NCBI GenBank assembly: GCA_026129095.1
Contig: JAHCIT010000004.1
Location: 1 to 64,000, forward strand
Length of the DNA: 64,000 nucleotides
From: Deltaproteobacteria bacterium
Lineage (GTDB): Bacteria > JAGRBM01 > JAHCIT01
Direction: 5' to 3'
Shown here: in pieces, positions 4,142-49,225 of the stretch
How the letters are laid out: each line of letters opens with the position of its first letter
Position numbering within the stretch: position 1 is the first letter of the stretch
The notes under the pieces: generated by a model
The model's database searches: none
The model's input: the letters and a program-made list of their open reading frames with translations, nothing else
Told to the model about the DNA's origin: nothing
Translations under genes and position numbers: made by a program

Positions 4142-4159
4142 TCCGTTAACTGAACGATC

Positions 4160-4214: not shown

Positions 4215-4249
4215 GGGAACACCGGTTTCAAAAAACCGTTCTCCGGCTA

Positions 4250-4278: not shown

Positions 4279-4323
4279 CGAACCCACATTCCCCCGAAGG
4301 GGCCAGTTTCAGGGAGCAGAAAA

Positions 4324-5145: not shown

Positions 5146-5186
5146 ACCGGTGCGAAGACATGACCATTTTTCAAGGAGCAACTGAC

Positions 5187-6002: not shown

Positions 6003-6020
6003 TCCGTTAACTGAACGATC

Positions 6021-6075
6021 AACACCCTCCCGGCCCCTTTCCCCTTTGATGGGGGAAGGGGCCGGAGTGTTTTTG
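6021..6075 (+). terminator. Rho-independent terminator after propeller paralogue 3
   Basis: Same stem-loop and T5 as at 4160-4214. Identity extends about 20 bp upstream, through the stop codon region (TGATCCGTTAACTGAACGATC). The unit gene plus terminator was therefore duplicated. Confidence 0.8.
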
Positions 6076-6115
6076 GGAAACGCCCCCAAATTAACTCGGC
6101 GCGTCATTTTTCTTC

Positions 6116-6143
6116 TTGACAGTAAAACGTCGGTGTATATATT
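6116..6143 (+). promoter_or_regulatory. Strong sigma70-like promoter for the phasin-like gene
   Basis: A perfect TTGACA (6116-6121), 16-bp spacer and TATATT (6138-6143) in an AT-rich island after the terminator. It is about 90 bp upstream of the gene at 6234. One of the best consensus promoters in the window, implying high expression of the small helical protein. Confidence 0.7.
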
Positions 6144-6233
6144 GTCATACAAGGATGACGCGATGCGTCTCCCCGTATCTGTATAACAGGATTTCAGTTC
6201 CCATAACACAACCAAAACACAGGAGAATCAGCC

Positions 6234-6527
6234 ATGCCACAGTTCAATCTCGACAGCATCCGCGAAGCCGCCAACTACCTCACCAGCGACGAATTCCGCA
6301 CGAAGCTCGAAACCCAGGTCCGCGAGGCGGCCCGGCTCGCCAATGACACCGCCCAGCAGGGCCTTGAGGCGGCCCGCAAGGTGAGCGAGACGGCCATCAC
6401 CGAGGCGCAGAAGGTCCAGCGCGAGGTGGCCGGCAAGGTGCAGACGTTCACCCGGCAGGTCACTGACCAGGCCCGCGAAACGGTCGAAAAGCTCCGCAGC
6501 CACACCGATACCGGCGCGCAGGCCTGA
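6234..6527 (+). CDS. Small amphipathic helical protein, phasin-like
   Basis: A 97-residue protein starting MPQFNLDSIREAANYLTS. It is almost entirely predicted amphipathic helix, with heptad-like Ala, Val, Thr and Gln spacing (REAARLANDTAQQGLEAARK and similar). This resembles phasins and apolipoprotein-like coats that bind polyhydroxyalkanoate granules or membranes. No signal peptide. AGGAGA lies 7 nt before the ATG, and a strong promoter sits upstream. Assignment is by composition only; no PHA synthase gene is in the window. A stress or structural coiled-coil protein is an alternative. Confidence 0.6.
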   Translation: MPQFNLDSIREAANYLTSDEFRTKLETQVREAARLANDTAQQGLEAARKVSETAITEAQKVQREVAGKVQTFTRQVTDQARETVEKLRSHTDTGAQA

Positions 6528-6541
6528 TCGAAGGGCCCCGG

Positions 6542-6606
6542 CCTCACCCCTACTTCCCCTCCCCCTCTCCGGTTCCCGGAGAGGGGGATTTAAGGGGGTG
6601 AGGCGG
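6542..6606. repeat. Dispersed palindromic repeat, compound form
   Basis: Inner stem CCCCCTCTCCGG/CCGGAGAGGGGG (6561-6587) nested in an outer CCTCACCCC ... GGGGGTGAGG stem. This shows the fullest form of the repeat family; other copies look like parts of it. Confidence 0.8.
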
Positions 6607-6735
6607 TTTCTTTCCCCTACTTGAAACCCGCCGCCCATACGGACTAGGTAGGGCCCGGTGCTGCCGGTCTGGGGTCCAGGCGGCGGGACCATCCCGCAGG
6701 GTAAAGACGCGGAACAAAAGCGGAAAAGGAAACAT

Positions 6736-7116
6736 ATGAGCGCCAAGCACGAAGAGGCGAAGAAGATCAAGAACTACCAGGCGGCCATCGGGAAGCAGCT
6801 CGAAAAGGCCCGCAAGAAGTTTGCCGACTTGGCCAAGAAGGCCGGTCTCGACCACTGGCCGAAGCTGGAAGACCTGCCCAAGGTGGGCGCGGTAAGCACC
6901 AAGATATCGGCCGAGCAGGCCAAGAGTATCCGTGAACCCGCCAAGCGCCGGGCCAAGGTCCGCAAGGCGGCGCTCGCCAATCCCGAGGTCCGCAAGGCCC
7001 GCAAGGAGCTGAAGCGCGCCCAGCGGGCAACGACCCGGACCCGGAAGCTGCTGGCCACCCGCACGAAGAAGGCCGAGGCGGCCCCGGCGGCGGCCGAGGC
7101 GCCCGCCGCCTCCTAA
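6736..7116 (+). CDS. Small lysine/alanine-rich basic protein, histone H1-like
   Basis: A 126-residue protein from ATG 6736, preceded by AAGGA; an in-frame ATG at 6658 would add unstructured sequence. It is very rich in Lys, Arg and Ala (KKIKNYQAAIGKQLEKARKK, EPAKRRAKVRKAALANPEVR) and ends in an Ala/Pro/Glu tail. This composition is seen in bacterial H1-like or nucleoid-associated proteins. A short central motif, GLDHWPKLEDLPKVGAVSTK, looks more ordered. No signal peptide or membrane segment. DNA or RNA binding is inferred from charge only. Confidence 0.6.
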   Translation: MSAKHEEAKKIKNYQAAIGKQLEKARKKFADLAKKAGLDHWPKLEDLPKVGAVSTKISAEQAKSIREPAKRRAKVRKAALANPEVRKARKELKRAQRATTRTRKLLATRTKKAEAAPAAAEAPAAS

Positions 7117-7179
7117 CGGTCCCCTTAAGGGAGGCGCGGCCCCCTTCACAGGCGGGGCCGGGCGGCAACCGGCTCCGGC

Positions 7180-9720
7180 ATGCTCACCCGATTCAACTTC
7201 ATCGCGCGGTGGATCGCCGAATTCCTGTTCGGCGCGATGGACCTGAGCGACAAGCTCCAGGACCGCGTCTGGTCGCTCCGCAAGGAGGGAACGGTCGTCT
7301 TCGTCCAGCGCCGCCGGAGCTGGGTCGATACGGTCGTCTTCAACTACCTGTTCCTGAAGGCGAAGCTCCCGTTGATCCGGTTCGTGGGCGGCGAGATCGA
7401 CCTTTTGCTGGTGGGGCCGGTCCGCGAGATCATCAGGGCGTTTTTCCGCGCCATCGGGCTTGCCCGGCCGCTCCCCGCGCAGAAGCCCTACCTTGACCGC
7501 CTCGGCGAGGAACTGGCCGCCGGGCGCGAGTCGCTCGTCTTTCTCGCCAAGGGGCGGAGCATCGTCAAGGATTTCTTCTCCGGCAACGACCCGTTCCCGC
7601 TGCTGGTGAAACTGGCCCGGACCTCCGACCGGCCTGTCTACCTCCTTCCGCAGTACATCATCTGGGACCAGACGCCCGGCCACAGCCGCGCCACCGTCAC
7701 CGAACGGGTGCTGGGGGCCGAGGATGACGAGTCGGTCGTCCGCCGGGCGATCGCCTGGATCAAGATGCTCCGCTACGCCAAGGCCGACTGCGGCACGCCG
7801 ATCGACGTGCGGGCGTTCATCAGGCTCCAGGACGAGGGTCTGAGCGACCGGGAGATCGTCCACCGGCTGAAGCTGGAGCTGCTGATGGAGTTCGAGCGCG
7901 AGCGGCGGGTCTATTCGGGCCCCAGGCTCAAGCAGCGGCCGGACATGAAGGCTGATATCCTGCGCGACGAGTGGTTCGTGGGGCGGCTGCTGGAGCTGGC
8001 CGAGCGGACAAACCAGAACCGCGACATGCTGCTCTACAAGGCCAACCGGATGCTCGACAAGATGGCCTCCGACTACAGCCACCTGAGCACCCGTGCGCTC
8101 AACTTCGTGCTGACGCAGGCCTGGAAGCGGATGTGGGACGGCATCGAGATGGACCCGGCGCAGCTCGAAACCCTGCGCCAGGCGATGCGGGAGGGGCCGG
8201 TGCTGCTGATGCCGAACCACTCGTCGCATGCCGACTACCTGCTCATGTCCACCCAGCTTTACGCCCACGACATCATCCCGCCCCACATCGCCGCCGGGGA
8301 CAACCTCTCGTTCTGGCCGCTGGGGGCGATCTTCCGGGGATCGGGGGCGTTCTTCATGCGCCGCTCGTTCCGGGGCGACGACCTCTACAAGCTCGTCTTC
8401 GACGCCTACATCCGTTTCCTCCTGCGCGAGGGATACCTCGTCGAGTTCTTCATCGAGGGCGGGCGCTCCCGCTCGGGCAAGATGCTCGGCCCCAAGTACG
8501 GACTGCTTTCGACGATGATCGACCACTACTTCACCGGCGACTGCCCGAACCTCTCCATCCTGCCGGTCGGCGTCGATTACGACCGGGTGTTCGAGGAAAA
8601 CTCGTTCAAGAAGGAACTGGAAGGCGGGGCCAAGCAGAAGGAATCGGTATTCGCGCTCCTCAAGATCGTCCGGTTCTTCGGCGAGAAGCGGGGCCGCGTC
8701 TACGTGAAGTTCGGCGAGCTGCTGCGCCTGCGCGACTGGACGGCCGACCGGAACCAGACGATGGACGATGCCGACAACCGCAAGACCTTCACGGCCGATC
8801 TCGCCGCCGAGGTCGTCACCCGCATCCAGCGCGAGCGAACCGCCTCGCCCACGGCGCTTGTCTGCGCCGCCCTGCTCCCCGACCCCGGCGTGGCGATCGA
8901 CCCGATCCTGTTCCAGAAGCGGGTGGAACTGCTGCTCGCCGCCGTGAAGCGGATCGGCATGCGTCTACCCTCCTCGCTTGCCGGGGCGCAGACGGACGCC
9001 CTCCGCACGCTGCATGACCGGCTGCACGACCTTGCCCACTCGAAGGTGGTGAGGATTGACGAGAATACCGGCCACATCACCTTCGAGCGGCCCGCGACGC
9101 TCGTCCTCGACTACTACCGCAACACTGTCGTGAACCTGCTCTCGGAGCTGTCGCTCACCGCGCTGGCCCTGCTGGCGGGCGGCACGGAACCCGCCGGGGC
9201 GGCCGGGATCGAGCGGCGCACGGAGTTTGCCGATACGCTGCTCGCCGGGCAGTTCATCCGGCCGGTCCGCGTCTCCGGCGAGGAGCGGCTGAAGATGCTC
9301 GCCGACCTCGGAGCCGCGACGCTCGCCAACGGGGCGGCCCCGCTCACGGCCTGCCCCGCCGACACCGAATCGCTCCGGCTCATCGCCTCGCTCGTCCGGC
9401 CGAACATCGAAACCGCCTGGCTCGTCCTGGATTCGCTGCCGCTTCTGGACGGCACGCCCCTGAAGAAGTCCGACTTCGCCAAACAGGTCGTGAAGCGGTC
9501 GGCCGACTCCCTGAAGAACGGCGACATCCGGACGGTGGAGTCCATTTCCCGCGCCCGTATTGACGAGGCGATCGGCTCGCTCACGCATCTCAAAGTGATC
9601 GAGCCCGGCGCCGAGCGGGACGAAATCCGCTCCGGCCCCACCGGCAAGCGGCACCCGCTCATCACCGGGGCCCGCGACCTGCTCGACCGGACGGCGCTCG
9701 CCGCCGGAAAACCGCAGTAG
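7180..9720 (+). CDS. plsB: Glycerol-3-phosphate acyltransferase, PlsB family
   Basis: An 846-residue protein close in size to E. coli PlsB (about 807). It would acylate sn-glycerol 3-phosphate at position 1, the first step of membrane phospholipid synthesis, at the inner membrane. The acyltransferase blocks are visible: H347-X4-D352 in NHSSHADYL, GAFFMRRSF near 388, FIEGGRSRSGK near 425 (glycerol-phosphate binding) and ILPVGVDYD near 461. The N-terminal 300 residues and the long C-terminal helical part also follow PlsB architecture. ATG 7180 has only a weak ribosome site. glpK lies elsewhere in the window, so both glycerol-phosphate supply and use are represented. Confidence 0.9.
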   Translation: MLTRFNFIARWIAEFLFGAMDLSDKLQDRVWSLRKEGTVVFVQRRRSWVDTVVFNYLFLKAKLPLIRFVGGEIDLLLVGPVREIIRAFFRAIGLARPLPAQKPYLDRLGEELAAGRESLVFLAKGRSIVKDFFSGNDPFPLLVKLARTSDRPVYLLPQYIIWDQTPGHSRATVTERVLGAEDDESVVRRAIAWIKMLRYAKADCGTPIDVRAFIRLQDEGLSDREIVHRLKLELLMEFERERRVYSGPRLKQRPDMKADILRDEWFVGRLLELAERTNQNRDMLLYKANRMLDKMASDYSHLSTRALNFVLTQAWKRMWDGIEMDPAQLETLRQAMREGPVLLMPNHSSHADYLLMSTQLYAHDIIPPHIAAGDNLSFWPLGAIFRGSGAFFMRRSFRGDDLYKLVFDAYIRFLLREGYLVEFFIEGGRSRSGKMLGPKYGLLSTMIDHYFTGDCPNLSILPVGVDYDRVFEENSFKKELEGGAKQKESVFALLKIVRFFGEKRGRVYVKFGELLRLRDWTADRNQTMDDADNRKTFTADLAAEVVTRIQRERTASPTALVCAALLPDPGVAIDPILFQKRVELLLAAVKRIGMRLPSSLAGAQTDALRTLHDRLHDLAHSKVVRIDENTGHITFERPATLVLDYYRNTVVNLLSELSLTALALLAGGTEPAGAAGIERRTEFADTLLAGQFIRPVRVSGEERLKMLADLGAATLANGAAPLTACPADTESLRLIASLVRPNIETAWLVLDSLPLLDGTPLKKSDFAKQVVKRSADSLKNGDIRTVESISRARIDEAIGSLTHLKVIEPGAERDEIRSGPTGKRHPLITGARDLLDRTALAAGKPQ

Positions 9721-9729
9721 CGTTTTTTC

Positions 9730-11421
9730 CTATTCGACCTGGGCGGCCTTTGACGGATCGGACGGGGATTCGTCCGTTTCCTTCGTTCCATCGGCCGGCT
9801 GGCCGAGGCCGAGCTGGGCGGTGAGCTTGTCGATCTGGGAGTCGAGGAGCTTGAGGTCCTTCTCGATGGCCGGCTGGACGGCCGTGCCAGGGTAGTCGGC
9901 GAGAAGCTGGTTGAGCTGTTTCTGCACGGCAAGAAGCGCCAGCCGCCGGGCGGCGGCGTCCTTGATCCTGAGGGCGCGCACCACGGCGTCGGCGGCCTGC
10001 TCGCGCTGGCGCTGGACCACGCCGTCAATGGCGGCGGGAAGCAGCTCCAGCGCCCTGCGGTTTTCGGTGGGCGAGCCCGACAGTTCGCGGAGCAGGTAGA
10101 CCGCTTCCGGGAACTTGCCCTCGCGGACGGCGAGCTCGGCTGCAAGAAGTTTCTGCCGGTCCAGCTCGGCCCGCTCGGCCGACGCCTTTCCCTTCTGGGC
10201 CTCCATCGTGCTGAGGGAGGCGGAGATCATCGGCTGGAGATCGGTTTCGGGGAAACGGTTCCGGAGCTCGCCGATCCTCCCGCGCACCGTGTCCAGTTCC
10301 GTCCGGCCGTGGAAGTAGCCGTCCTGGAGCGCCGACAGCTCGCGGCCGAGGAGGTCCAGCCGCCGCTGGCGGAAGCCTTCCATGATCTGCTGCGCGCGCT
10401 CGCGCAGGGCCGGGTCGCGGGCCTCGCCCATCACGTCGGCCACGAGGCCGTGCGCGGCCGAGTAGTCGGTGCCGTAGGCGAAGATCGCCTCGGCCTGGAT
10501 GAGCTTCGCCCGCCAGCGGGCATTCTCGTCCCGGTCGCGCCGCTCCAGCGCGGCGATGCGGTCCCGCGTCTGGGGGCCCAGCGGCTCCAGCGACTTCAGC
10601 CGTTCCATCACCGCCTGGTAGTACTGGCGCGCACGGTCGAGCTCGCCCACGGCGGCCAGATACCCGGCCAGCTCGCCCGTGAGCGTGGGGAGATCGTCGA
10701 ACTGCTGCGACGAGAGAAAACCCTCGAGATAGTGCGCCGCCCGCGCCGGATCGCCCGACCTTGCGGCCGCCCGCGCCACTGCGGGCACCACGTCCAGCGG
10801 CATCTCCTCCGGCGGAAGCTCGCTCACCGCCGTATCCCAGGCGGCGAGAATCTTCCCGTCGTCGCCCGACTGGACCGCCTGGAGCAGTTCCTGCCGGACC
10901 GACCCGCCGGTGCGGGCCGGGATCTGCCCCTCGCCGATCTCCCCGGCCTCGCCGGACGCGAGCCGGGCGGCGCGCAGCTTGGCGAGCCTCGTCATGGCTC
11001 CGATAAGCTGTTCCCAGCGGGCGCGGTCGCCCGCTTCGGTGCGGATCGTGTGGCGGTCGAGGCCGCTGGCCGCCTCGGCGAGGGCGACGAGCGCCTCCAG
11101 TTCCCCGGTGCGGGCCTGCTTCTGCGCGTCGGAAAGGGTGCGAGACTTGCGCGTCTCGTCGAGAAGCTTTTTCAGCGGGGCCGGGTCGGGGAGCTGGATA
11201 TCCACCTGCAGCGATTCGGGCGTCGCCGATTCGCCATAAGGGTTCACGTAGCCCTGCGCCGCCGCGCCGCCACCGGCCGCGCCCTCTTCCACCGGTGCGG
11301 GGGGCGGCGGCCCGCCGGGCAGCGTGACTCCGGCGCACCCGGATAGAACGGCGGCCAGCAGGGAAAGCCCGCTTCCGGCGGCCCGGAAACGGCGGATGAT
11401 CTCGGCCTGAAACTGCGGCAT
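9730..11421 (-). CDS. Large helical lipoprotein, function unknown
   Basis: A 563-residue lipoprotein from ATG 11421 (MPQFQAEIIRRFRAAG), chosen because GAGGTG precedes it and the hydrophobic segment leads to the lipobox LSGC; upstream in-frame ATG 11499 adds no signal. After a Pro/Gly-rich linker the chain is almost all helix, rich in Ala, Arg, Glu and Leu. It has TPR-like pairs such as DPARAAHYLEGFLSSQ and GELDRARQYYQAVMERL, followed by coiled-coil segments. It converges on plsB with a 9-bp gap. It probably acts as a periplasmic or outer-membrane assembly scaffold. No specific family recognised. Confidence 0.75.
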   Translation of the reverse strand: MPQFQAEIIRRFRAAGSGLSLLAAVLSGCAGVTLPGGPPPPAPVEEGAAGGGAAAQGYVNPYGESATPESLQVDIQLPDPAPLKKLLDETRKSRTLSDAQKQARTGELEALVALAEAASGLDRHTIRTEAGDRARWEQLIGAMTRLAKLRAARLASGEAGEIGEGQIPARTGGSVRQELLQAVQSGDDGKILAAWDTAVSELPPEEMPLDVVPAVARAAARSGDPARAAHYLEGFLSSQQFDDLPTLTGELAGYLAAVGELDRARQYYQAVMERLKSLEPLGPQTRDRIAALERRDRDENARWRAKLIQAEAIFAYGTDYSAAHGLVADVMGEARDPALRERAQQIMEGFRQRRLDLLGRELSALQDGYFHGRTELDTVRGRIGELRNRFPETDLQPMISASLSTMEAQKGKASAERAELDRQKLLAAELAVREGKFPEAVYLLRELSGSPTENRRALELLPAAIDGVVQRQREQAADAVVRALRIKDAAARRLALLAVQKQLNQLLADYPGTAVQPAIEKDLKLLDSQIDKLTAQLGLGQPADGTKETDESPSDPSKAAQVE

Positions 11422-11645
11422 CGTCGGCACCTCGTCCAAAAGCACCTGCTCCCCTGAATCCCGATGGTGACAGGCCCCTGTATACACGCCCGGAGCCACG
11501 GCCGTAAACCGGCGGCCGGGGGAGTACCAGAGGGGCCGCCACAGGTCAGTTGACAGTGGCGGCGTGAATCACCTAACTAGTGCAAATCTGTAGGTTTCCA
11601 CGGAATCGCAGAACCATCTAGAGGGAAGGTTATAGTTACGCCCAT

Positions 11646-12305
11646 ATGAGTGCCCAGGACGACGCCCTGTTCCAACGATTCGGAAAGGTTTTCCCCGCCG
11701 GCACGACCATCTTCGAGGAAGGCGCCGAGGGGCGCGAGATGTTCGTGATCCAGGACGGCAAGGTCCGCATCTCCAAGAAGGTGCGCGACGTGGAGAAGGT
11801 GCTGGCCGACATCGGCCCCGGCGCGTTCTTCGGCGAGATGTCGATCCTCCTCAACAAGCCGCGCTCGGCGAAGGCAGTGGTGCTGACCGATTCGAAGCTG
11901 CTGGTGATCGAGCCCAAGACGTTCGAGGCGATGCTCAAGGGCAACGCCGAAATCGCCATCCGGCTCATCAAGATCCTCGCCGACCGGCTCCAGGAGGCCG
12001 ACGAGCAGATCGAGAACCTGCTGCTGCGCGACGACTCCAGCCGCGTGGTCCACTTCCTCACCCGGCAGGCGGACAAGAAGGGCAAGCCCGTCGAGGGCGG
12101 CGGCCGCTTCATCGCCGGCAACAAGGATCTGATCTCCGCCCAGACCGGCACCGACCCCCGGCACATCAACGACGTGCTGGACAAGCTGGTGAAGGGCAAC
12201 CTGCTGAAAATCCAGCCCGACGGATTTGTCGTCGCCGAGACGGAAAAGCTCCGGAAGTTCCTGGAGTACCTCGCGCTCAAGGAGCAGTTCGGGGAGTTTT
12301 CCTGA
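11646..12305 (+). CDS. Cyclic-nucleotide-binding regulator, Crp/Fnr type
   Basis: A 219-residue protein. Residues 10-120 form a cNMP-binding beta-barrel with the phosphate-binding cassette GAFFGEMSILLNKPRSA, where Arg-Ser contacts cyclic phosphate in Crp. A dimerisation helix follows, then a C-terminal winged-helix region (DLISAQTGTDPRHINDVLDK) with a looser helix-turn-helix than Crp. Fnr-type cysteines are absent, so an iron-sulfur oxygen sensor is unlikely. The next gene encodes a putative cyclic-nucleotide phosphodiesterase 49 bp downstream, so ligand binding and ligand removal are paired. Targets cannot be told from the window. Confidence 0.85.
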   Translation: MSAQDDALFQRFGKVFPAGTTIFEEGAEGREMFVIQDGKVRISKKVRDVEKVLADIGPGAFFGEMSILLNKPRSAKAVVLTDSKLLVIEPKTFEAMLKGNAEIAIRLIKILADRLQEADEQIENLLLRDDSSRVVHFLTRQADKKGKPVEGGGRFIAGNKDLISAQTGTDPRHINDVLDKLVKGNLLKIQPDGFVVAETEKLRKFLEYLALKEQFGEFS

Positions 12306-12354
12306 TACCCCGCAGCGGGGGCGGCTGTCAGGAAAGGCGGAAACCGGGTTTCCC

Positions 12355-13125
12355 ATGCGTGTGAAGATCTGCGGATGCTCCGGCGGCGAGACACCGGAAA
12401 CCTCCCTGACGGGGTTTGTGATCGACGACACCCTGGCGCTGGACGCCGGTTCGCTGTGCAAGGCCCTCACGCTCGAAGAACAGTGCGCCCTCGACAACGT
12501 GCTCATCACGCACACGCACCTGGACCACATCAAGGACCTGGCGTTCCTCGCCGACAACATCATCGGGATCAAGAAGACGCCGCTCCACATCTGGGGAGCC
12601 GAGCCGGTCATCCGGGTGCTGCGCGAACACTTCATGAACGACCGGATCTGGCCGGACTTCACGAAGATCCCCACGGCCGACAACCCCACGCTCGTCTACC
12701 ACCAGATCGAGCCGGAAAAGCCGTTCGAGGTGGCCGGTTACAAGGTGCTGGCCGTGCCGACGAAGCACCCCGTTCCGAATACCGGCTACATCGTCTCCAA
12801 CGCCACGGGCGCGTTCTGCTTCACCGGGGACACCGGCGTCACCGAACGTATCTGGGAAGTGCTCAACCAGACGCCGAAGGTGCTGGGCCTCATCACGGAA
12901 GTGAGTTTCCCGAACATGATGACCGACCTGGCGAACCTGAGCGGCCACCTGACGCCGAAGATGCTGTTTGAGCAGATGGGGCGGCTCAAGAACCGCAACT
13001 ACACGGTCTACCTGTCGCACAACAAGCCCAATTTCCGCGAACTGCTCCACAAGGAAGTGGCCGAGACGGGGCTCCAGGACTACTACTTCCTTACCCGCGG
13101 CGAGCTGCTCGACCTCGCTCCCTGA
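12355..13125 (+). CDS. Class II cyclic-nucleotide phosphodiesterase-like metallo-hydrolase
   Basis: A 256-residue protein of the metallo-beta-lactamase fold. The metal motif THTHLDHI (H53, H55, D57, H58) matches the HxHxDH signature. The 'HTHLDH' form is typical of class II 3',5'-cyclic nucleotide phosphodiesterases (PDEase_II). Later metal ligands are likely in TKHPVPNTG, CFTGDTG and LSHNKPN. ATG 12355 fits the domain start. Placement directly after a cNMP-binding regulator suggests it hydrolyses the same nucleotide (cAMP or cGMP). A general beta-lactamase-fold hydrolase is the alternative. Confidence 0.75.
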   Translation: MRVKICGCSGGETPETSLTGFVIDDTLALDAGSLCKALTLEEQCALDNVLITHTHLDHIKDLAFLADNIIGIKKTPLHIWGAEPVIRVLREHFMNDRIWPDFTKIPTADNPTLVYHQIEPEKPFEVAGYKVLAVPTKHPVPNTGYIVSNATGAFCFTGDTGVTERIWEVLNQTPKVLGLITEVSFPNMMTDLANLSGHLTPKMLFEQMGRLKNRNYTVYLSHNKPNFRELLHKEVAETGLQDYYFLTRGELLDLAP

Positions 13126-13150
13126 AACCCGCCCCCGCAAGAAACCCACC

Positions 13151-14482
13151 TTGACCCTGCCCAGGGAAATCCGCTCCGCCGCCGACTTCGGCAGCCTTGA
13201 GGCCGGGCAGACGATCCGTCTTGGCCTGGAGCGGATGCGCCGCCTCTGCGAAAAACTGGACCATCCCGAACGGGCGTTCCGCGCCGTCCACGTGGCCGGG
13301 ACCAACGGCAAGGGCTCGATCTGCGCGGCGATCCATGCGGTGCTCGCCGGGGCGGGCGCGGAGCCGGGACTCTACACCTCGCCGCATCTGGTGAGCCCGC
13401 TGGAGCGTGTGCGGATAGGGCGGCGTGACTGGACCGAAACGGAACTCGTCTCGTCCGTCAACGAGGCGCTTTCGGCCGTTCACGGCGACACGGCCCTGTC
13501 GGCCGAGCCGCCCACGGTGTTTGAACTCGTTACGGCGGCGGCCTTTCTCGCGCTCGCCCGCGCCGGCGTGAAGCTGGCCGTGATCGAGGTGGGGCTCGGC
13601 GGCCGTCTCGATTCGACCACGGTCTGCCACCCGGAAGTGTGCGTCATCAGTTCCATCGGGCTCGACCACCAGCAGTATCTGGGGCCGGACATCCTCAGCA
13701 TCGGGCGAGAGAAGGCGGGGATCATCCGGGAAAAGGCGCCGGTGGTCACGTCCGCCGTGCAGCCGGAAATCCAGCGGCTCATCCACGACACGGCGATGGA
13801 GCGGCTCTCGCCCTGCTATCTGGGCGGCCGCCACTTCGACTACGTTTCGGCCGGACGGGAAGGCGGCAGCGAGGCGCGGTTCGACTACCTCGGCATCAAC
13901 ACCCGCTGGCCGGACCTTCCGCTGCCGCTGCCGGGCGCGCACCAGTTCCAGAACATGGCCGCCGCCTGCGCGGCACTGGAACTGCTCGCCGCCCGCGGCG
14001 TGGCGGGCCTTGCGCCGGAGACGGTGCGCTCCGGACTTGCCTCCGTGCGCTGGCCGGGGCGGCTGGAGCATGTCTCCACCTCGCCCGACCTGTGGCTCGA
14101 TGGCGCGCACAACCCGGACGCCGCCCGCGTCCTGGCGAAGTTTCTCGAAACGGCCGCCGCGGGCCGCCGCCTCCACTTCATCGTGGGCTTCCGGGCGGAC
14201 AAGCAGCAGCGGGAGTTCCTGGAGATCATCGCCCCGCTGGCCCACCGGATCACCGCGACCGGCGCCCCGGGGCTCATGCCGGCGGACGAGGCGGGCCGGA
14301 TCGCGGCGGCCGTTCACCGGAACACGGTCGTCGAGCCGGAACTTGCGAAAATCCTCGCCCAGCTTCACTGGCGGAAAGACGCCACCGAAACGGCCGTCGT
14401 CACGGGATCGCTCTATCTGGTGGGCGCGGCGAAGGCGTGGCTCGACCTCAACATGCCCGGCCAGCGTTCACCGGCCGCCTGA
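13151..14482 (+). CDS. folC: Folylpolyglutamate/dihydrofolate synthase
   Basis: About 443 residues from a TTG at 13151. No ATG fits, and homologues start roughly 40 residues before the P-loop. It adds glutamate to dihydropteroate or folates using ATP in the cytoplasm. Evidence: P-loop HVAGTNGKGS, then YTSPHLVSPLERVRIG, the ATP/Mg motif EVGLGGRLDSTTVCHPEVC, GLDHQQYLG with EKAGIIREKAP, and LWLDGAHNPDAARVL near the Mur-ligase-like C-terminal domain. Length is normal for FolC. The start is 25 bp after the phosphodiesterase gene, so co-transcription is likely. Confidence 0.88.
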   Translation: MTLPREIRSAADFGSLEAGQTIRLGLERMRRLCEKLDHPERAFRAVHVAGTNGKGSICAAIHAVLAGAGAEPGLYTSPHLVSPLERVRIGRRDWTETELVSSVNEALSAVHGDTALSAEPPTVFELVTAAAFLALARAGVKLAVIEVGLGGRLDSTTVCHPEVCVISSIGLDHQQYLGPDILSIGREKAGIIREKAPVVTSAVQPEIQRLIHDTAMERLSPCYLGGRHFDYVSAGREGGSEARFDYLGINTRWPDLPLPLPGAHQFQNMAAACAALELLAARGVAGLAPETVRSGLASVRWPGRLEHVSTSPDLWLDGAHNPDAARVLAKFLETAAAGRRLHFIVGFRADKQQREFLEIIAPLAHRITATGAPGLMPADEAGRIAAAVHRNTVVEPELAKILAQLHWRKDATETAVVTGSLYLVGAAKAWLDLNMPGQRSPAA

Positions 14483-14506
14483 ACGGCTGGTTCGGGGCCG
14501 GAACCG

Positions 14507-15199
14507 TCAGGGCTGTTCCGCTTCGCCGGGCGGATTGGCGGCAGGCTGCCGGGCGGGCTCCTGCTGGTCATCCGGCACCCAGAGGCGGTCGCGGCGGAAG
14601 TACAGCTCCAGCGCGAGCTGCGTGAACGATTCGAAGACGCCCTCGCCCACTTCCTCCTGCCTGACGATGATCGCCTGGTCATCGGGGCCGATGACATGGA
14701 ACACCGGGGAGCGGACGAACATCTCCTTGGTCACCTTCCGCATGTTCTGGCGGTCGGCCCAGGTGCGGTAGGCGTCATCCCACGCGATCTCGCGCACTCC
14801 GAAGGCGTTCACCTCGCGGATCCCGGCGTCGTCCACACGCCAGTAGTGGGAAAAGTGGCTGATCGTCCGGTTGTAGAACACCAGCGAGCCCGCGAGCACG
14901 ATCATCGCCCACAGGGCGACGCGGCCGGGTTTCGGCAGGTTTTCCTGGGTGACGGAGCGGTAAGCCAGCGGGAACAGGAATCCCACGGCGGCCAGAACCC
15001 CGTACCAGATGGCGTCCACGAGGAAACTGAGCGGCGCGACCGAGATGATCCCCACGCCGGCCGCCGGGCTCTCGAACCGGTAGTAGGTCGTGCATCCGGC
15101 CGCCCCGGAAAGGACAGCCAGAACGGCGAGGCGGCGGGCAAAACCGCTGGCGAGACAGGTGAAACGGCGGCTATTGGGGGCGGCTCCGGGGCAAAACAT
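14507..15199 (-). CDS. Membrane-associated lipoprotein, unknown
   Basis: About 230 residues from ATG 15199, which has GGAGAG upstream; ATG 15232 is the longer alternative. A signal segment ends in GAAGC followed by TTYYRFESP, and two further hydrophobic stretches (FLVDAIWYGVLAAVGFLFPL and VALWAMIVLAGSLVFY) form a hairpin. The C-terminal part is soluble (FGVREIAWDDAYRTWADR). No family recognised. It converges on folC with a 24-bp gap. Confidence 0.65.
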   Translation of the reverse strand: MFCPGAAPNSRRFTCLASGFARRLAVLAVLSGAAGCTTYYRFESPAAGVGIISVAPLSFLVDAIWYGVLAAVGFLFPLAYRSVTQENLPKPGRVALWAMIVLAGSLVFYNRTISHFSHYWRVDDAGIREVNAFGVREIAWDDAYRTWADRQNMRKVTKEMFVRSPVFHVIGPDDQAIIVRQEEVGEGVFESFTQLALELYFRRDRLWVPDDQQEPARQPAANPPGEAEQP

Positions 15200-15396
15200 C
15201 GGATCGGCTCTCTCCGTGGCATGTACGGCCATTCCCGCCAGGTCACGGGATTTGCAGAAACGGCTCTGTGTGATAGATTAACCGTTGCAGAGACAGAATC
15301 AAAAAACGTTAGTTATTATGATGACTTACAAGCCAAGGATGCGCCGCCCCTGACCGGGCGCCGCTGTCCCGGCCAGTGGCCGGGGCATGGGCGACC

Positions 15397-17274
15397 ATGA
15401 GCCTGCTCGGAAACCTGGAAGACCTCGGTCTGGGAGACATCCTCCAGATCGTCAGCCTCTCGAAAAAGAGCGGCGTGCTGCTGCTCACGGCGCGCAACCG
15501 CAGCGGGCAGGTCATGTTCAAGGAGGGGCGGGTCGTCTGCGCCACGGTCAGCACGATCGCCGGGGATCTGACCGAACTGCTGGTCCGGTCCGGCGGGGTG
15601 CCCGAGGCCACCGCGAAGGACGCCCGGCAGGTCTGGGACGACCTCAACCACACCCAGCCCCTCCGGCAGGTTCTCCAGAAAACCTACAAGGTCAGCCCCG
15701 CGCTCATTGACGACGCGATCCGCGAGCACATCCAGTCGGTCACGACGGAGCTGTTCACCTGGACCGACGGCGAGTTCAACTTCGACCTGCTCGACGTGGA
15801 CGACGTCATCTCGCGCCTCCCCCCGGCGCAGCGCGAGCTGGTCGTGACCGAGGGGATCAGCCCGCAGTTCCTGGCGATGGAGGCGGCCCGCCTGATGGAC
15901 GAGAGCGCCGGCGGGACGACCGGCCCCGCGGGCGCGGCCGCCGCACCGGAGCTTGGCCGGGTGATTCCGATGAAGCGCCCGGCCGTTCCGCCCGTTCCGG
16001 TCACGCCGTCCCGGCCCACCCCGCCTGCTCCCGCCCCGGCCGCTCCGGCCGCATCTTCCACTCCGGCTGCGCCCCCCGCGAAGGTGGCCCTGCCGCCGCT
16101 CCGCAGCCATGTGCCGGTGATCGTCGCGGACGACGACAAGCTGACGCTGAATGCGCTGGCCGCCTCGCTGCGCCTGCGCGGCTTCGAGACGCACCCGGCC
16201 GATTCGGTCGAGGGGGCACGGACGCTGGTCAACGAGTTCGAATCGCGGGGCCAGTTCTACATCGTGCTGGCCGACCTGCTGATGCCGCGCAGCGACGGCG
16301 CGGGAATCCTGGGCGGCATCGAGCTGCTGGAGTTCGTCCGCGCCCAGCCGGTTCCGAGGCCCGCCGTGCTGTTTTCCGACTACGAGAACGCCAGCGCCCA
16401 GCAGAAGGCGGTGGAACTGGGCGCCAGCGAGTTCCTGCACAAGCCGCGCAAGGCGGAGATCACCAGGGGGGCGCAGTCGGATGCGATCGTGAAGTTCGTT
16501 GCGGTGCTGGAGCCCCGGCTCGCCCGGTGGATCGAGGAGGAAACCGGCCAGCCGCTTCCGCCGCTGGCCGCCGCGCCGGAACCGGCCCCGCCACCCGCAC
16601 AGCCGCCTGCACAGCCAGCCGTGCCGCCGTCCGTGCCGGCGAAGGCCCCCGCGTCGCCGGACTCGCTGCGGGACATCGGCGGCGAGATCGCCGAGGAGAT
16701 CGGCGCCGAGTTCAAGCCGGCCCAGAAGGCGTCAAGCGCCGGGCTCTCCATGCTCCGCCAGATGAGCCAGGAACTGAACAACCCGGAATCGAACATCGAG
16801 ATCACGCTGCTCATCCTGCGGTTCGCCGCCGAGCTCATGTCGCGGGCGGTGATCTTCCTCGTGACCGACCGGGACATCCGGGGCCTCGGCCAGTTCGGGC
16901 TGGAGGTTCCGGGCGTCAACGCCACGCGCATGGTCCGCTCGACGCTGATCCCGCTGAAGGAGCCGGGCGCGCTGGCCGAGGTGGCGCAGTCGAAGACGAC
17001 CTACAAGGGTCCGCTCCAGCCGGGCAAGTGGAACGACTACCTCGTCCGGCAGTTCGGCGGGTTTCCGGTGCCAGAGGCATTCATCTCCCCGATCGTGAGC
17101 CGGAACCGGTGCGTCGCCCTGCTCTACGGCGACAATGCCCCCGAAGAGCTGCCCACCGGCGAGACCGAGGCACTCGAAATCTTCCTCGTGCAGGCGGGGA
17201 TGGCGATGGACCGCGCCGTGCTGGAGCGCAAGCTCGGCGAGCTGGCCCGCGCCGTGCCCCGGAGCAAGGGATAG
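15397..17274 (+). CDS. PATAN (DUF4388) - receiver - GAF-like signalling protein
   Basis: A 625-residue cytoplasmic protein and first gene of the chemosensory operon. Residues 1-160 are a DUF4388/PATAN domain (MSLLGNLEDLGLGDILQIVS is a typical opening). A Pro/Ala linker leads to a receiver domain at about 238-355 with acidic pocket DDD at 245-247, phospho-acceptor D293 and conserved Lys in FLHKP. A second Pro-rich linker leads to a GAF-like domain at about 450-620. ATG 15397 is chosen because PATAN domains begin there. PATAN-receiver proteins are output or adaptor proteins in gliding and pilus control in other bacteria, a role possible here. Confidence 0.8.
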   Translation: MSLLGNLEDLGLGDILQIVSLSKKSGVLLLTARNRSGQVMFKEGRVVCATVSTIAGDLTELLVRSGGVPEATAKDARQVWDDLNHTQPLRQVLQKTYKVSPALIDDAIREHIQSVTTELFTWTDGEFNFDLLDVDDVISRLPPAQRELVVTEGISPQFLAMEAARLMDESAGGTTGPAGAAAAPELGRVIPMKRPAVPPVPVTPSRPTPPAPAPAAPAASSTPAAPPAKVALPPLRSHVPVIVADDDKLTLNALAASLRLRGFETHPADSVEGARTLVNEFESRGQFYIVLADLLMPRSDGAGILGGIELLEFVRAQPVPRPAVLFSDYENASAQQKAVELGASEFLHKPRKAEITRGAQSDAIVKFVAVLEPRLARWIEEETGQPLPPLAAAPEPAPPPAQPPAQPAVPPSVPAKAPASPDSLRDIGGEIAEEIGAEFKPAQKASSAGLSMLRQMSQELNNPESNIEITLLILRFAAELMSRAVIFLVTDRDIRGLGQFGLEVPGVNATRMVRSTLIPLKEPGALAEVAQSKTTYKGPLQPGKWNDYLVRQFGGFPVPEAFISPIVSRNRCVALLYGDNAPEELPTGETEALEIFLVQAGMAMDRAVLERKLGELARAVPRSKG

Positions 17275-17278
17275 CGCC

Positions 17279-17656
17279 ATGCCCATTGCCCGCATCCTGC
17301 TCGCCGAGGACTCCCCCACCACACGGTCCATGGTCGTGTCGGCGCTGGAACTGATCGGCGATATCGAGGTGGTGCCCACCTCCAGCGGGTTCGAGGCCCT
17401 GAAGACGCTGCCGCGCTTCAAGTTCGATCTCATCATCACCGACGTGAACATGCCCGACATCAACGGCCTCGAACTGGTGTCGTTCGTCAAGCACAACCCG
17501 ATGTACCGGCACATCCCGGTCATCATCATCACCAGCGAGACCGGCGAGAAGGACGAGGCCCGCGGACGCGCCCTCGGCGCCGCCGAGTACGTCCACAAGC
17601 CGCTGAACCCGGACACCCTCCAGCAGGTGATCCGGCGCTACATCAGGGTGGACTGA
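17279..17656 (+). CDS. CheY-like response regulator
   Basis: A 125-residue single receiver domain. The acidic pair is E10/D11, phospho-acceptor D55 in LIITDVNMPD, switch residue T85 and K107 in YVHKP are all present. It starts 5 bp after the PATAN gene and ends 5 bp before cheA. It would accept phosphate from the CheA encoded next and act on a motor or adaptor. One of two stand-alone CheY proteins in the operon (the other is at 30173). Confidence 0.88.
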   Translation: MPIARILLAEDSPTTRSMVVSALELIGDIEVVPTSSGFEALKTLPRFKFDLIITDVNMPDINGLELVSFVKHNPMYRHIPVIIITSETGEKDEARGRALGAAEYVHKPLNPDTLQQVIRRYIRVD

Positions 17657-17661
17657 AGACC

Positions 17662-19689
17662 ATGGCGAAACTGTCGCAGGAGTTCGTCTCGGAGGCCGAG
17701 GAGATCCTCGACGAGCTGAACCGCGAGCTGTTCCGCCTGGACGGCATGGCGTCGGGCGAGGCGTTCAACCCCGAATGCGTGAACTCGATCTTCCGGGGCG
17801 CGCACTCGCTCAAGGGGCTCGCCGGCATGTTCGGCTTCTCCGAGCTCCAGGAGTTCGCCCACCATCTCGAAACCCTGCTGGACAGCCTCCGGCTGGGGCG
17901 CGTCGCCCTGTCGAAGGCGCTGGTGGACGCCCTGTTCCGGGGCGCGGCCCTGATGAAATCCCTCGTCGAGGCGCGGGCGGCCGAGAACGCCCTGCCCGAC
18001 ACGGCGGGGCTGCTGGCCGAGGTGGGCCGTGTCCTGAACGCGAAACCGGAGCAGGCGCAGGTGTCTCCGGCCGAGCAGGCGGGCATTGACCCGGCCTTCA
18101 CCTCCACGCTGTCGGAATACGAGGAGCACCGGCTGAACGAGAACCTCCGGACGGGGAACTTCGTCCACAAGGTGACGGCGGTGTTCGAGCTGGCGACCTT
18201 CGACACCGCGCTCGGCGATCTGATCGAGGCGGCCAAGACAAAGGGCGAGATCATCACGACGCTTCCCTCCGGGGCGGCCTCCACCGCCGACCAGATCGCC
18301 TTCGACGTGCTCGTGGGAACGAAGATCAGCCGCGACGAGCTGGCGACGCTGGTGGCGAAGATACCGGGCGCGGAAGTGACGACGCTGGGCGGCGGCGCGG
18401 CGAAGCCCGCGGCTCCGGCCGCCGGAGCGGGCGCTGGAGCACCGGCTGCCACGCCTGCCACCGACGACCGGGCCACGGCCCGCAGCACCGCCCAGACCGT
18501 GCGCGTCCACATCGGCAAGCTCGACTACCTGATGAATATCGTGGGCGACCTGGTGATCCAGCGGTCGGAACTTCAGCGCATCTCAGACCGGCTGAAGCGG
18601 GAGGTCGAGGCGGGCCAGCTCGCCATTGATTTCGACAAGGCGATCCGCAACTTCACGCGGCGGGTGAACGAACTCCAGACCGGCGTGATGAACACGCGGC
18701 TCGTGCCGATCGGCTCGGTGTTCGAGCGGCTGGCGACGGTGATCCGCCAGACGTCCCGCTCGCTCGGCAAGGACGTGCGGATCGAGATGTCCGGCGTCGA
18801 GACGGAACTGGACAAGCTGATCGTCGAGGAGCTGTCCGACCCGCTCATGCACATCGTCCGCAACGCCATTGACCACGGGATCGAGCTTCCGGCCGAGCGC
18901 GAGGCCGCCGGCAAGCCGCCGCAGGGCACGATCCGCCTGAACGCCTACCCGGAGGGCAACAAGGTCATCGTGCAGATCACTGACGACGGCAAGGGCATAG
19001 ACGCCGACCGCGTGCACCAGAAAGCGCTGGACCTGGGGCTCGTGGACCCCAACCAGCAGCTCACGAACGCCGAGAAGCTCGACCTCGTGTTCCTGCCGGG
19101 GCTTTCCACCAAGACCGAGGTGAGCGACCTCTCCGGCCGGGGCGTCGGCATGGACGTGGTGAAGAACAACATCGCCGGGCTGTCGGGCGTCATCCAGATC
19201 GATTCAAAGCCGGGCAAGGGAACGACCTTCTCGCTCACGCTGCCGATCACGCTCGCCATCATCAAGGCGCTGCTCGTGGAGTCCAGGGGACACACCTACG
19301 CCGTGCCGATCTACAGCGTGATCGAGTGCGTGCGCGTGCCCGCCGGCCGGGTGACGACGATCGAGCGGCGGGCGGTGTTTGAGCTGCGCGAGCGCAGCGT
19401 CCCGCTCATTGATCTCGGCAGCTACTTCCGGCACGAGGGCGAGCCGGCCACCGGGCCCTACGACTACGTGATCGTGGTGGGACTCGCCGAGCAGCGGCTC
19501 GGCATCCGGGTGGACACGCTCGCCGGGCAGCAGGACGTGGTGATCAAGCCGCTCGGCGACCTGCTGAAGAAGGCGCCGGGCATTGCCGGGGCGGCGGAGC
19601 TGGGCGGCCAGACGACCGTGCTCGTGCTGGACATAGGCCGGATACTCTCGGACGTGATGACGGGCGGGCACGGAGAGCGGGCCGCCTGA
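17662..19689 (+). CDS. cheA: Chemotaxis histidine kinase CheA
   Basis: A 675-residue soluble kinase. The N-terminal Hpt domain has phosphorylatable His48 in FRGAHSLKG. A middle P2-like region (about 150-255) precedes an Ala/Pro linker. Dimerisation begins at KLDYLMNIVGDLVIQRSELQ, and the HATPase domain shows the N-box LMHIVRNAIDHG, G1 DDGKGID and G2 GRGVGMDVV. The C-terminal CheW-like domain ends the chain. It phosphorylates the receivers encoded around it, under control of the MCP at 22057 through the CheW proteins. All catalytic boxes are intact. Confidence 0.93.
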   Translation: MAKLSQEFVSEAEEILDELNRELFRLDGMASGEAFNPECVNSIFRGAHSLKGLAGMFGFSELQEFAHHLETLLDSLRLGRVALSKALVDALFRGAALMKSLVEARAAENALPDTAGLLAEVGRVLNAKPEQAQVSPAEQAGIDPAFTSTLSEYEEHRLNENLRTGNFVHKVTAVFELATFDTALGDLIEAAKTKGEIITTLPSGAASTADQIAFDVLVGTKISRDELATLVAKIPGAEVTTLGGGAAKPAAPAAGAGAGAPAATPATDDRATARSTAQTVRVHIGKLDYLMNIVGDLVIQRSELQRISDRLKREVEAGQLAIDFDKAIRNFTRRVNELQTGVMNTRLVPIGSVFERLATVIRQTSRSLGKDVRIEMSGVETELDKLIVEELSDPLMHIVRNAIDHGIELPAEREAAGKPPQGTIRLNAYPEGNKVIVQITDDGKGIDADRVHQKALDLGLVDPNQQLTNAEKLDLVFLPGLSTKTEVSDLSGRGVGMDVVKNNIAGLSGVIQIDSKPGKGTTFSLTLPITLAIIKALLVESRGHTYAVPIYSVIECVRVPAGRVTTIERRAVFELRERSVPLIDLGSYFRHEGEPATGPYDYVIVVGLAEQRLGIRVDTLAGQQDVVIKPLGDLLKKAPGIAGAAELGGQTTVLVLDIGRILSDVMTGGHGERAA

Positions 19690-19728
19690 CGGCGGGCCGC
19701 CACACGGAAGAAGGACGGAGGGCCGGAG

Positions 19729-20571
19729 TTGTACGAGGAGTTCTTCCAGTTCACGGCGCGGCCGTTTTCCAAGACGCCCGACCCCGGTTTTCTCTACGAG
19801 AGTCCGGGGCACGCCGAGGCGCTGGCGCGCCTCGAACTGGCCGTCGAGGACCGCGAGCTGGCGCTGCTGCTTGGCGACGTGGGCTCCGGCAAGACGACGC
19901 TCACCCGCGCCCTCATTGACCGGCTCGGCGAGACGGTGACGCCGGTGCTGCTCACCAACCCCAAGCTCACCCCCGTGCAGCTCCTTCGCATCTTCGGCGA
20001 GCGGCTCGGCCTCTCGCCGCTGCCCAAGAACCGCATGGAGCTCCAGGAGCGGCTCTCCGACCGGCTCTACCAGCTCCACGAGCAGGGAAAGCCGGTGGTG
20101 CTGGTGATTGACGAGGCGCAGCTCATCCCCGGCAAGGCGACCTTCGACGAGATCCGGCTCATCACGAACTTCCAGCTTGACGACACGAACCTGCTCACGG
20201 TGATCCTCGCCGGGCAGCCGGAACTGGCCGGGCGGCTGGCGCGGCCGGCCTATGAGGCGCTGGCCCAGCGGATCGGCCTCACCTGCCGGCTGGGGCCCCT
20301 CGACCGGGCCGAGACGGCCCGGTACGTGGCCCACCGGCTTCAGGTGGCCGGGGCGGCGAAAAACCCGTTCACCGAGGAAGCGCTGAACGCCCTGCACCGG
20401 TTCTCGGCTGGCGTCCCCCGGCTTCTGAACAGCATCGCCCACGGCGCGCTGATCGATGCCTTCTCCCGTGACGACACGGCGGTCGGCCCGCAGCACGTCG
20501 AGTCGGCCGCCCGCGAGCGGATCGAGACCCGCGGCCCCCGCGGCAGCTCCACCGGCGAGGTGCGCCACTGA
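19729..20571 (+). CDS. ExeA/GspA-like AAA ATPase
   Basis: A 280-residue AAA ATPase starting at TTG 19729 behind a GGAGGGCCGGAG ribosome site. It opens MYEEFFQFTARPFSKTPDPG, the hallmark of the ExeA/GspA family. Walker A is GDVGSGKT (49-56) and Walker B is VVLVIDEA (123-130). The sensor region is LDDTNLLTVILAGQPEL. Family members help assemble secretion or pilus machinery or act as transposition-type ATPases. Its place between cheA and cheW, with a 1-nt overlap to the next gene, suggests the chemosensory pathway controls an envelope machine such as type IV pili. Confidence 0.85.
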   Translation: MYEEFFQFTARPFSKTPDPGFLYESPGHAEALARLELAVEDRELALLLGDVGSGKTTLTRALIDRLGETVTPVLLTNPKLTPVQLLRIFGERLGLSPLPKNRMELQERLSDRLYQLHEQGKPVVLVIDEAQLIPGKATFDEIRLITNFQLDDTNLLTVILAGQPELAGRLARPAYEALAQRIGLTCRLGPLDRAETARYVAHRLQVAGAAKNPFTEEALNALHRFSAGVPRLLNSIAHGALIDAFSRDDTAVGPQHVESAARERIETRGPRGSSTGEVRH

Positions 20572-46703: not shown

Positions 46704-49094
46704 CTATTTCTCGATGGCCCGGAGGATCTCGTCCTCGTGGGCGGCCCACTCCTTGTCGTAGACCGCGCGCTCGTCCGCCCCCACATCCACCTCGCGGACC
46801 AGCCGCCCGGCCCTCGACAGGACGAACCAGACCATCGGAATGACACCCCCGAACAGGAACAGCGTTCCGCCGATCTTTCGCAAGTGAGCCAGGGTCTGCC
46901 ATACCATCCCGGTCACGAAGTCGTTGGTCCGGGCGTACCACAGGCCGTGCTCCACCACGGCCGCGAGCTGGTAGAGCCCAATGGGGAACAGGTTCAGCGT
47001 CATCATCAGCACGATTCCCAGCTGGAGCGACCAGAAGGACCGGTTGATGAGCTTCTCGTTCCACGAGGCCCTGGGAAACAGGTGCTGGCAGCAGAACAGC
47101 ATGCCCGCCAGCGCCACGTTCCCCTTCACGCCGAACATGGCGGCATGGGCGTGGTTTCCGGTGAGGTAGGTCGAGTGCTCGTAGTAGTTGATGATGGGCA
47201 GGTTGATGAGCGATCCGAACACGCCGGCCCCGATGATGTTCCAGAAGTTGACGGCGAGGATGAATCTCCACACGCCTTCCATCACGAACTTCTGCCTGCC
47301 GCCGGCATGGTTCGCTCCGGCGCGCACGATCTCGTTCCGCATCCGCCAGGCGTCCAGGGTGATGAGGAGCAGCGGCAGCACCTGCAGCGTCGAGAAGACA
47401 CTGCCCAGGGCGATGATTCCCGTCGGCTTGCCGATCCAGTAGAAATTGTGGGAGATGCCGACCGTCGCCGTGACGAGGAACATCATGACCGCCAGGAAGA
47501 TGACCCGTTCGGCCATGGCGCGGTTGATGAGCCCCATCTGGACGAGCATGTATCCGACGATGCAGGTGGTGAACACCTCGAAGGTGACCTCGACCCACAT
47601 GTGGACGGTCATCCAGCGCCAGTAGTCGGAGATGGCGAAGTTGGTCCTCGCCGTCGCCCCCAGCCCGAAAAATAGGAACAGGACCATGATCGCGCTGCCG
47701 TAAAAGAGCCAGGCGGGAACGGACCAGAGGTTCTGCTTCGAGATCCAGGGCCGGACGCCCCGGAAGATGATCACGATCCACAGGACAAAGGACACCAGCA
47801 TCAGGATGTGCCAGAACCGCCCCAGCTCCATGAACTCCCATCCCTGGCTCCCGAACCAGTAGGCCAGGGTGTCGTTCATCAGGCCCATCTGGCCCGCATA
47901 GATCCCGAAAAACGCGCCCGCGCCGACGGTCACGCAAAGGGCGAACAGGAGTTCGATCAGGAAACGCTGGCCTTTGGGCACTGGTGCGAGCTTGGGCAGG
48001 AAGAAGATCGTGTACCCGACCCAGCACATGAAGAACCAGTAGATCTGAAGGAGCGTGTGCCAGGACCGGACGACGTTGAAGGGGATGGAAAGCCCGAACA
48101 GGCTGACGACCGTCATGCCCGGACCGCCTTCGAGGAAATCCTCGGCGCTCAGGATGCCCGCCAGCACCTGGACCAGGAACAGGAGCATGGCGAAGGCGAA
48201 GAACTTGTACGTGGATCTCTGGGTGGGACGGACGAAGTCGTGGCCCTTCTCCAGCTCAACCGTGGTGAGCGTGCCGCCATTGGCCCCGTTGAACGGGTCG
48301 CCGGGGAGTTCCTTCATCTGGCCATAGATGTAGAGAACCAGCATGATCCCCAGGAACAGCGCGAGGATCGAGACGAAACTCCACAGGACCGTGGGCATGG
48401 TCGGGTGGTTGCCGGCATCCGGGTCGTAGGGCCAGTTGTGCGTGTAGCTGAAGTTCTCCCCCGGCCGGTCGGCCCCGGAGACCCACCCTCCCCAGAAGAA
48501 AAAGGCCGTCAGCGCCTGCAGGTCGTCCGGGCTGGAGATGTAGTTGGGAAAGGTGAACGCCTCGGAGTAGGAGGAGTCGGTGAACATCCGCGTGTAGTGC
48601 TTTTCCAGCTCCCGCAGCGCGAACACCTGGGCGTCGTTGATGCGGATCAGGTCTTCCTCCGGGGAATATCCGTTCTCGTGGATCTCCTGCTGCACCCTCA
48701 TCCTGATCGCGTTCCGGTCCGCACCGGTCAGCTCGCGCTCCCGGCTGATCTCGTCCTCGTAGTAGGTCCGCATCGCCAGCACCGTCCGGTGCAGCGCGTC
48801 GGCGGTGAAGTCGGGGCCCCGCTCCGCGCCGTCGCCCCAGAACGATCCCCACGACATCAGTCCGCGGAGATGGAATATCTCCTTCCCGCGATCGACCCTT
48901 TCGGCGGGAATCACCGTTTCCCCGGCGGGCGAGACGAAGTTGGCGATCGGCGGCGCCCCCTCGTAGGTCCACGATCCCAGGGCGACGAGCCCCACGATGC
49001 TGATTCCGGCCACGACCGCGAAATGGAGCCACCAGGTCTTCTTGTCCAGAAGCCACTTGGCGAACGTCCGGTTCCTGTTTCCAGCTCCACTCAT
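46704..49094 (-). CDS. nod: qNor-family protein with nitric oxide dismutase (Nod) signature
   Basis: A 796-residue heme-copper-oxidase-superfamily membrane protein of quinol NO-reductase architecture (TM1 near 22-42, long periplasmic domain, then about 13 TM segments). Family motifs are present: HLRGLMSWGSFWGDGAERG and the FeB motif H498-MWV-E502. But canonical HH (His559/His560 in Geobacillus qNor numbering) is H549-N550 here (GISHNFYWIG), canonical E581 is Q571 (SVFSTLQ), and quinol-site H328 is E318 (AEDFLEG for AHYGVEG). All map with a constant 10-residue offset. H560N, E581Q and loss of quinol residues are the changes reported for Methylomirabilis Nod, which converts 2 NO to N2 and O2. 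ATG 49094 follows AGAGG. Reductase function cannot be excluded. Confidence 0.85.
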   Translation of the reverse strand: MSGAGNRNRTFAKWLLDKKTWWLHFAVVAGISIVGLVALGSWTYEGAPPIANFVSPAGETVIPAERVDRGKEIFHLRGLMSWGSFWGDGAERGPDFTADALHRTVLAMRTYYEDEISRERELTGADRNAIRMRVQQEIHENGYSPEEDLIRINDAQVFALRELEKHYTRMFTDSSYSEAFTFPNYISSPDDLQALTAFFFWGGWVSGADRPGENFSYTHNWPYDPDAGNHPTMPTVLWSFVSILALFLGIMLVLYIYGQMKELPGDPFNGANGGTLTTVELEKGHDFVRPTQRSTYKFFAFAMLLFLVQVLAGILSAEDFLEGGPGMTVVSLFGLSIPFNVVRSWHTLLQIYWFFMCWVGYTIFFLPKLAPVPKGQRFLIELLFALCVTVGAGAFFGIYAGQMGLMNDTLAYWFGSQGWEFMELGRFWHILMLVSFVLWIVIIFRGVRPWISKQNLWSVPAWLFYGSAIMVLFLFFGLGATARTNFAISDYWRWMTVHMWVEVTFEVFTTCIVGYMLVQMGLINRAMAERVIFLAVMMFLVTATVGISHNFYWIGKPTGIIALGSVFSTLQVLPLLLITLDAWRMRNEIVRAGANHAGGRQKFVMEGVWRFILAVNFWNIIGAGVFGSLINLPIINYYEHSTYLTGNHAHAAMFGVKGNVALAGMLFCCQHLFPRASWNEKLINRSFWSLQLGIVLMMTLNLFPIGLYQLAAVVEHGLWYARTNDFVTGMVWQTLAHLRKIGGTLFLFGGVIPMVWFVLSRAGRLVREVDVGADERAVYDKEWAAHEDEILRAIEK

Positions 49095-49192: not shown

Positions 49193-49225
49193 AAATGGCT
49201 CATTTGCCTGATGCAAATGCATCAG
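49193..49225. promoter_or_regulatory. Overlapping palindromes between nod and a methyltransferase
   Basis: CTGATGCA-AA-TGCATCAG (49208-49225) is a perfect 8-bp inverted repeat. CATTTGC-CTGAT-GCAAATG (49201-49219) is a second, overlapping 7-bp one, and AAATG-GCT-CATTT overlaps its left arm. The core GATGCA/TGCATC half-sites recall NO-responsive NsrR sites, but the spacing is shorter. It lies about 100 bp upstream of nod and about 50 bp upstream of the gene at 49277, so it could serve either. Operator function is inferred. Confidence 0.45.

Follow-up and report, generated by a model that had tools for sequence, protein, structure and literature searches.

Does the gene at positions 46704-49094 of the window encode a quinol-dependent NO reductase (qNor), or a member of the putative NO dismutase (Nod) family, which would form N2 and O2 from NO? 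The window is the whole 64,000-nucleotide stretch analysed here, the beginning of contig C4 of a 3.67-Mb assembly that is 97% complete, with contamination given as 0.41%. Dark formation of O2 from NO has long remained an open question, since no Nod enzyme is available in purified form; as of 2026, none had been isolated and characterised (PMC13386854). The residue changes that set Nod apart were first described in 2012 (PMC3413370). The original prediction assigned the gene to Nod rather than qNor.

The gene product and its active site

The open reading frame is intact and full-length, starts with ATG and has AGAGG a short distance upstream. The features of the gene referred to below are as follows.

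46704..49094, minus strand: nod-type gene, 796 aa, qNor-fold membrane protein (open reading frame, Pfam PF22085 and PF00115, AlphaFold model compared with 3ayf, tree)
47382..47384, minus strand: codon of Q571, in place of qNor Glu581 (alignment with 3AYF)
47425..47445, plus strand: site of the general nod primer nod1706Rv2, two mismatches (no matches in 100 shuffles; primer from PMC6636425)
47445..47450, minus strand: codons of H549 and N550, FeB ligand His559 kept and His560 replaced by Asn (alignment with 3AYF and relatives)
47589..47603, minus strand: codons of H498 to E502 (HMWVE), FeB ligand His508 and Glu512 kept (alignment)
48141..48143, minus strand: codon of E318, in place of quinol-site His328 (alignment with 3AYF)
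48430..48447, minus strand: site of the general nod primer nod684Fv2, one mismatch (primer from PMC6636425)

The product matches the Pfam families NorB_cytochrome_c-like (1e-46) and COX1 (9e-51) and none of the NCBIfam models. In a PDB sequence search qNors were the best hits, with 3AYF from Geobacillus at the top (1.6e-131). The AlphaFold model (mean pLDDT 78, pTM 0.83; low confidence in some loops, including 557-562 and 631-648) fits 3ayf with TMq 0.85 and TMt 0.90. The Pfam domains, the 3AYF match and the predicted fold point to a qNor-fold protein, in line with the original reading from its length and motifs.

Active-site residues were compared in a MAFFT alignment of nod relatives and 11 qNors (two PDB entries, seven plasmid-borne proteins and two from distant genomes), with 3AYF numbering for qNor positions. 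H498, E502, H549, N550, Q571 and E318 of the window protein align with His508, Glu512, His559, His560, Glu581 and His328, respectively, so that the three substitutions and the conserved FeB motif stand as first described. The offset of 10, claimed to be constant, holds at these six sites and fails elsewhere (H346 aligns with His355, H648 with His651). Every one of the 31 relatives whose sequence extends over the FeB site (30 of them full-length with 58–76% identity, one partial) combines HN at that site with Gln at position 581, whereas HH and Glu are found in 11 of 11 qNors; hence the pattern is not due to chance. The FeB ligands H498 and H549 and the heme ligands H346, H648 and H650 are retained, and no heme c motif (CxxCH) was found in the protein. 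The histidine of YTHNWP (H219), encoded within the nod684Fv2 site, is conserved in every relative and missing from each of the 11 qNors. Across the many phyla represented among the relatives, most residues of the catalytic core do not vary.

H560N, E581Q and a lost quinol site are the marks of putative NODs (PMC3413370, PMC10286720). The last of these is less complete here than had been claimed. The column of Phe336 holds a non-aromatic residue in the window protein, but E322 aligns with Glu332, a position where close relatives have G, Q, S, A, K or V. Of the three quinol residues named in the literature, the alignment shows a clear loss for two (His328 and Phe336), not for all, which makes the quinol-site argument weaker than it was in the original prediction. 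The surrounding region (residues 318-327 of the window protein) reads EDFxxGGPG in the acidobacterial/myxococcotal-type subclade versus a shorter TDFVRP in the proteobacterial-type one.

The qNors of Geobacillus (3AYF), Achromobacter (6QQ5) and Cupriavidus necator pHG1 share the domain layout and the fold with the window protein at approximately 31–36% identity. They differ from it in having HH at FeB, Glu at 581, intact His328 and Phe336, and Asp746, where the window protein has HN, Gln, Glu, a non-aromatic residue and G743, respectively.

Relatives, phylogeny and primer sites

Genome contigs were scanned for relatives with peptide words derived from the window, such as HNFYWIGK; the published reverse primer encodes FYWIAKP. 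Identity to the nod relatives is 55–77%, and to qNors at most 36%. The titles of the metagenome-assembled genomes (MAGs) carrying the relatives name Acidobacteria, Myxococcota or Deltaproteobacteria, Geobacter, Bacteriovoracaceae, and Alpha-, Beta- and Gammaproteobacteria. A tblastn search of plasmids yielded only qNor-like genes with less than 60% identity, some of which were taken as outgroups. The tree contains the 31 nod-type rows and the qNors, but no authenticated Nod of M. oxyfera, HdN1 or Muricauda. On it, all nod-type rows, the window gene among them, group in a single clade (support 100/100) on a long stem (1.3), apart from the qNors. The clade retains its 100/100 support after removal of the diagnostic columns.

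Within it, the window gene belongs to a subclade of 13 rows (100/100) with mainly acidobacterial and myxococcotal titles, and its nearest nod genes come from MAGs of Acidobacteriota and Myxococcota. These genes (L006-L014, L035, L036) share about 71–77% identity with it as well as HN and Gln, but their hosts are of another lineage and their gene neighbours are not common to the window. One gammaproteobacterial copy lies inside the subclade and one acidobacterial copy outside it, which suggests lateral transfer of nod.

From nod684Fv2 to nod1706Rv2, the primer sites in the window cover exactly 1023 bp, the length given for DAMO_2437 with the general nod primers (PMC6636425). The core of the NC10-specific primer nod1012R, encoding DF[IV]GGGP, matches the sister genes L010 and L035 exactly; with three mismatches in the window, it is a weak match on its own. 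Compared by published features, the window protein resembles the putative Nod proteins of Ca. Methylomirabilis oxyfera (DAMO_2434/2437) and HdN1 in H560N, E581Q, a quinol site that is degraded in part, the other histidines kept, the lack of a heme c motif, the nod primer sites and the 1023-bp spacing.

Taken together, the residues, the tree, the primer sites and the predicted fold leave little doubt that the window gene belongs to the putative Nod family, as originally proposed. Reports of nod genes already exist for soils, aquifers and lakes as well as for MAGs from several phyla (PMC10286720, PMC10264387, PMC12285268, PMC13386854), and the window gene is an additional member, from a rare lineage, of this already known family.

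Two acidobacterial assemblies contain two nod copies each (L006 and L009 in MEKU01, L007 and L033 in MELF01), and M. oxyfera likewise has two. A Nod relative with 54% identity in the best segment is encoded on a putatively viral 231-kb contig from a viral collection (L109, IMGVR_UViG_3300035492_000331); a NOD-like gene has been reported in marine viruses (PMC8115048).

Gene neighbourhood and nitrogen metabolism of the host

No conserved gene neighbourhood was found around the compared nod loci, and no dedicated O2-using catabolic system adjoins the gene. There is an overlap between the 3' end of nod and a histidine kinase gene taken at its longest frame; genes for a response regulator and a sigma54 activator are located nearby. 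The region directly upstream of nod contains no FNR-type sites. The gene is preceded by one candidate regulatory feature:

49208..49225, no strand assigned: perfect palindrome CTGATGCAAATGCATCAG, candidate operator, approximately 130 bp upstream of the nod start

The same TGATGC-N4-GCATCA pattern occurs without mismatch 178 bp upstream of the L009 nod gene, which comes from a different lineage, and in no other tested upstream region; it may serve as an operator. Elsewhere in the window (3335-5145), two tandem genes encode proteins that are nearly alike over their first 25 residues (MMNRFLTAACAATMVFAAGCGSSGG) and are likely a lipoprotein gene duplication.

The genome was also searched for nitrite reductase, nosZ and oxidases or oxygenases, as had been suggested with the original prediction: NirS and an aa3-type oxidase are present and NosZ was not found. 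The nirS gene is part of a norC-norB-norQ-norD-nirJ-nirF-nirS cluster (L068, G000:C12:36001-56000, positions 10375-19885), in which norC, norB, norQ, norD and nirJ are "-like" calls; its nor genes are those of the host's cNor. With NirS, the host should make NO. No Cu-type nitrite reductase (Cu-oxidase_3) was found in the genome, and the controls for this search worked. Another locus (L072, G000:C5:58001-72000, positions 3161-8209) encodes NXR-type alpha and beta subunits that are closest to the Kuenenia nitrite oxidoreductase 7b04 (1795 and 609 bits); a protein with a cytochrome c/EB_dh domain adjoins them. This enzyme could oxidise nitrite or reduce nitrate.

The NosZ domain families searched gave no match in the host genome. 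Since the control was positive (PF18764 in C. necator pHG1 and nine other genomes), the absence of NosZ is meaningful within the 97% completeness. The single same-order relative compared (G001) has NosZ and lacks nod; the remaining genomes have no more than the domain in common with the host. This sampling speaks neither for nor against the host being deltaproteobacterial-like, as originally described.

Subunit I of the aa3-type oxidase on contig C7 scores 645 bits to CtaD, just below the curated 671. Five genes of the FA_desaturase family are present; as candidates for AlkB they were rejected by eye, given that they resemble lipid desaturases. A Phenol_Hydrox match was not accepted as a clear monooxygenase, being a 353-aa protein with only 34 bits to this family and 30 bits to AurF. 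No pmoA was found in the host genome in a search where no positive control gave a signal.

The host is like M. oxyfera, as reported for the latter, in that NosZ was not found. It is unlike M. oxyfera in having one nod copy instead of two, an NXR-type enzyme and cNor, and in that pmoA was not found, with the above qualification on the control.

Proposed reaction and alternative explanations

The best explanation of these observations is that the protein would act as a dismutase of the Nod family (2 NO -> N2 + O2), to which we assign a probability of roughly 0.6. The protein would carry heme b, heme b3 and a nonheme metal in a qNor fold, with a His-His-Asn metal site in place of three histidines, Gln in place of Glu581 and a partly degraded quinol site. 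NO produced by NirS would bind at the heme b3/metal site and be disproportionated to N2 and O2, with no electron supply from quinol. The aa3-type oxidase and O2-dependent desaturases could then draw on this O2. Several points speak against dismutation: cNor in the same genome provides another sink for NO, no dedicated O2-using catabolic system was found beside the gene, Glu is kept at one quinol position (E322), the tree contains no authenticated Nod, and the literature holds some NOD-like proteins to be possible NO reductases and lists no characterised Nod enzyme (PMC8115048, PMC13386854). It had been proposed that the organism may make O2 from NO; the family assignment in this proposal is upheld, and the formation of O2 is a reasonable inference from the family.

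A rather unlikely alternative is a divergent NO reductase with N2O as its product, which may serve to detoxify NO and receives electrons from a non-quinol donor or via the altered site. The qNor fold, the kept heme ligands and two FeB histidines, and the aligned quinol-site Glu would all agree with such an enzyme. PMC8115048 cites work suggesting that some NOD-like proteins remain NO reductases, and also the occurrence of NOD-like genes where N2O peaks and canonical norB is lacking; NO-response regulators occur near some nod genes, and detoxification has been suggested (PMC13386854). However, the protein has lost Glu581, which is implicated in catalysis, one FeB histidine and the quinol His328, the FeB and 581 changes are identical in every relative, and the genome already has cNor with norQ/norD-type genes.

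It is less probable still that a qNor-derived protein has acquired another role, such as binding, sensing or scavenging of NO without turnover. The loss of several catalytic residues, the overlap with the histidine kinase frame and the nearby response-regulator and sigma54-activator genes would fit this explanation, but signalling genes are not consistently next to nod at other loci, and the invariance of most of the catalytic core over many phyla suggests an enzyme.

That the substitutions are assembly artefacts, or that the contig is mis-binned and the genome context does not apply, is very improbable: the GC content of the sampled stretches (contigs C1, C2, C4, C5, C7 and C12 of G000) does vary from 0.54 to 0.70, but many assemblies made independently show these very residues, the contamination is given as 0.41%, and GyrA, whose gene is the sole match in the genome and lies approximately 18 kb away from nod on C4, is closest (65%) to the same-order relative, which argues against a foreign origin of C4.

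If dismutation is accepted, the host might be, as a tentative picture, a self-oxygenating denitrifier in a barely sampled lineage. The NXR-type enzyme, NirS and Nod would convert nitrate or nitrite via NO to N2 and O2, and the O2 would be directed to the aa3 oxidase and desaturases, not to methane oxidation. The gene provides a candidate Nod in a rare lineage, from a genome that is almost complete and in which pmoA was not found. As NirS and cNor are present and NosZ was not found, no path from NO to N2 other than Nod is apparent in this host, and therefore formation of N2 by the host would be a clean test.
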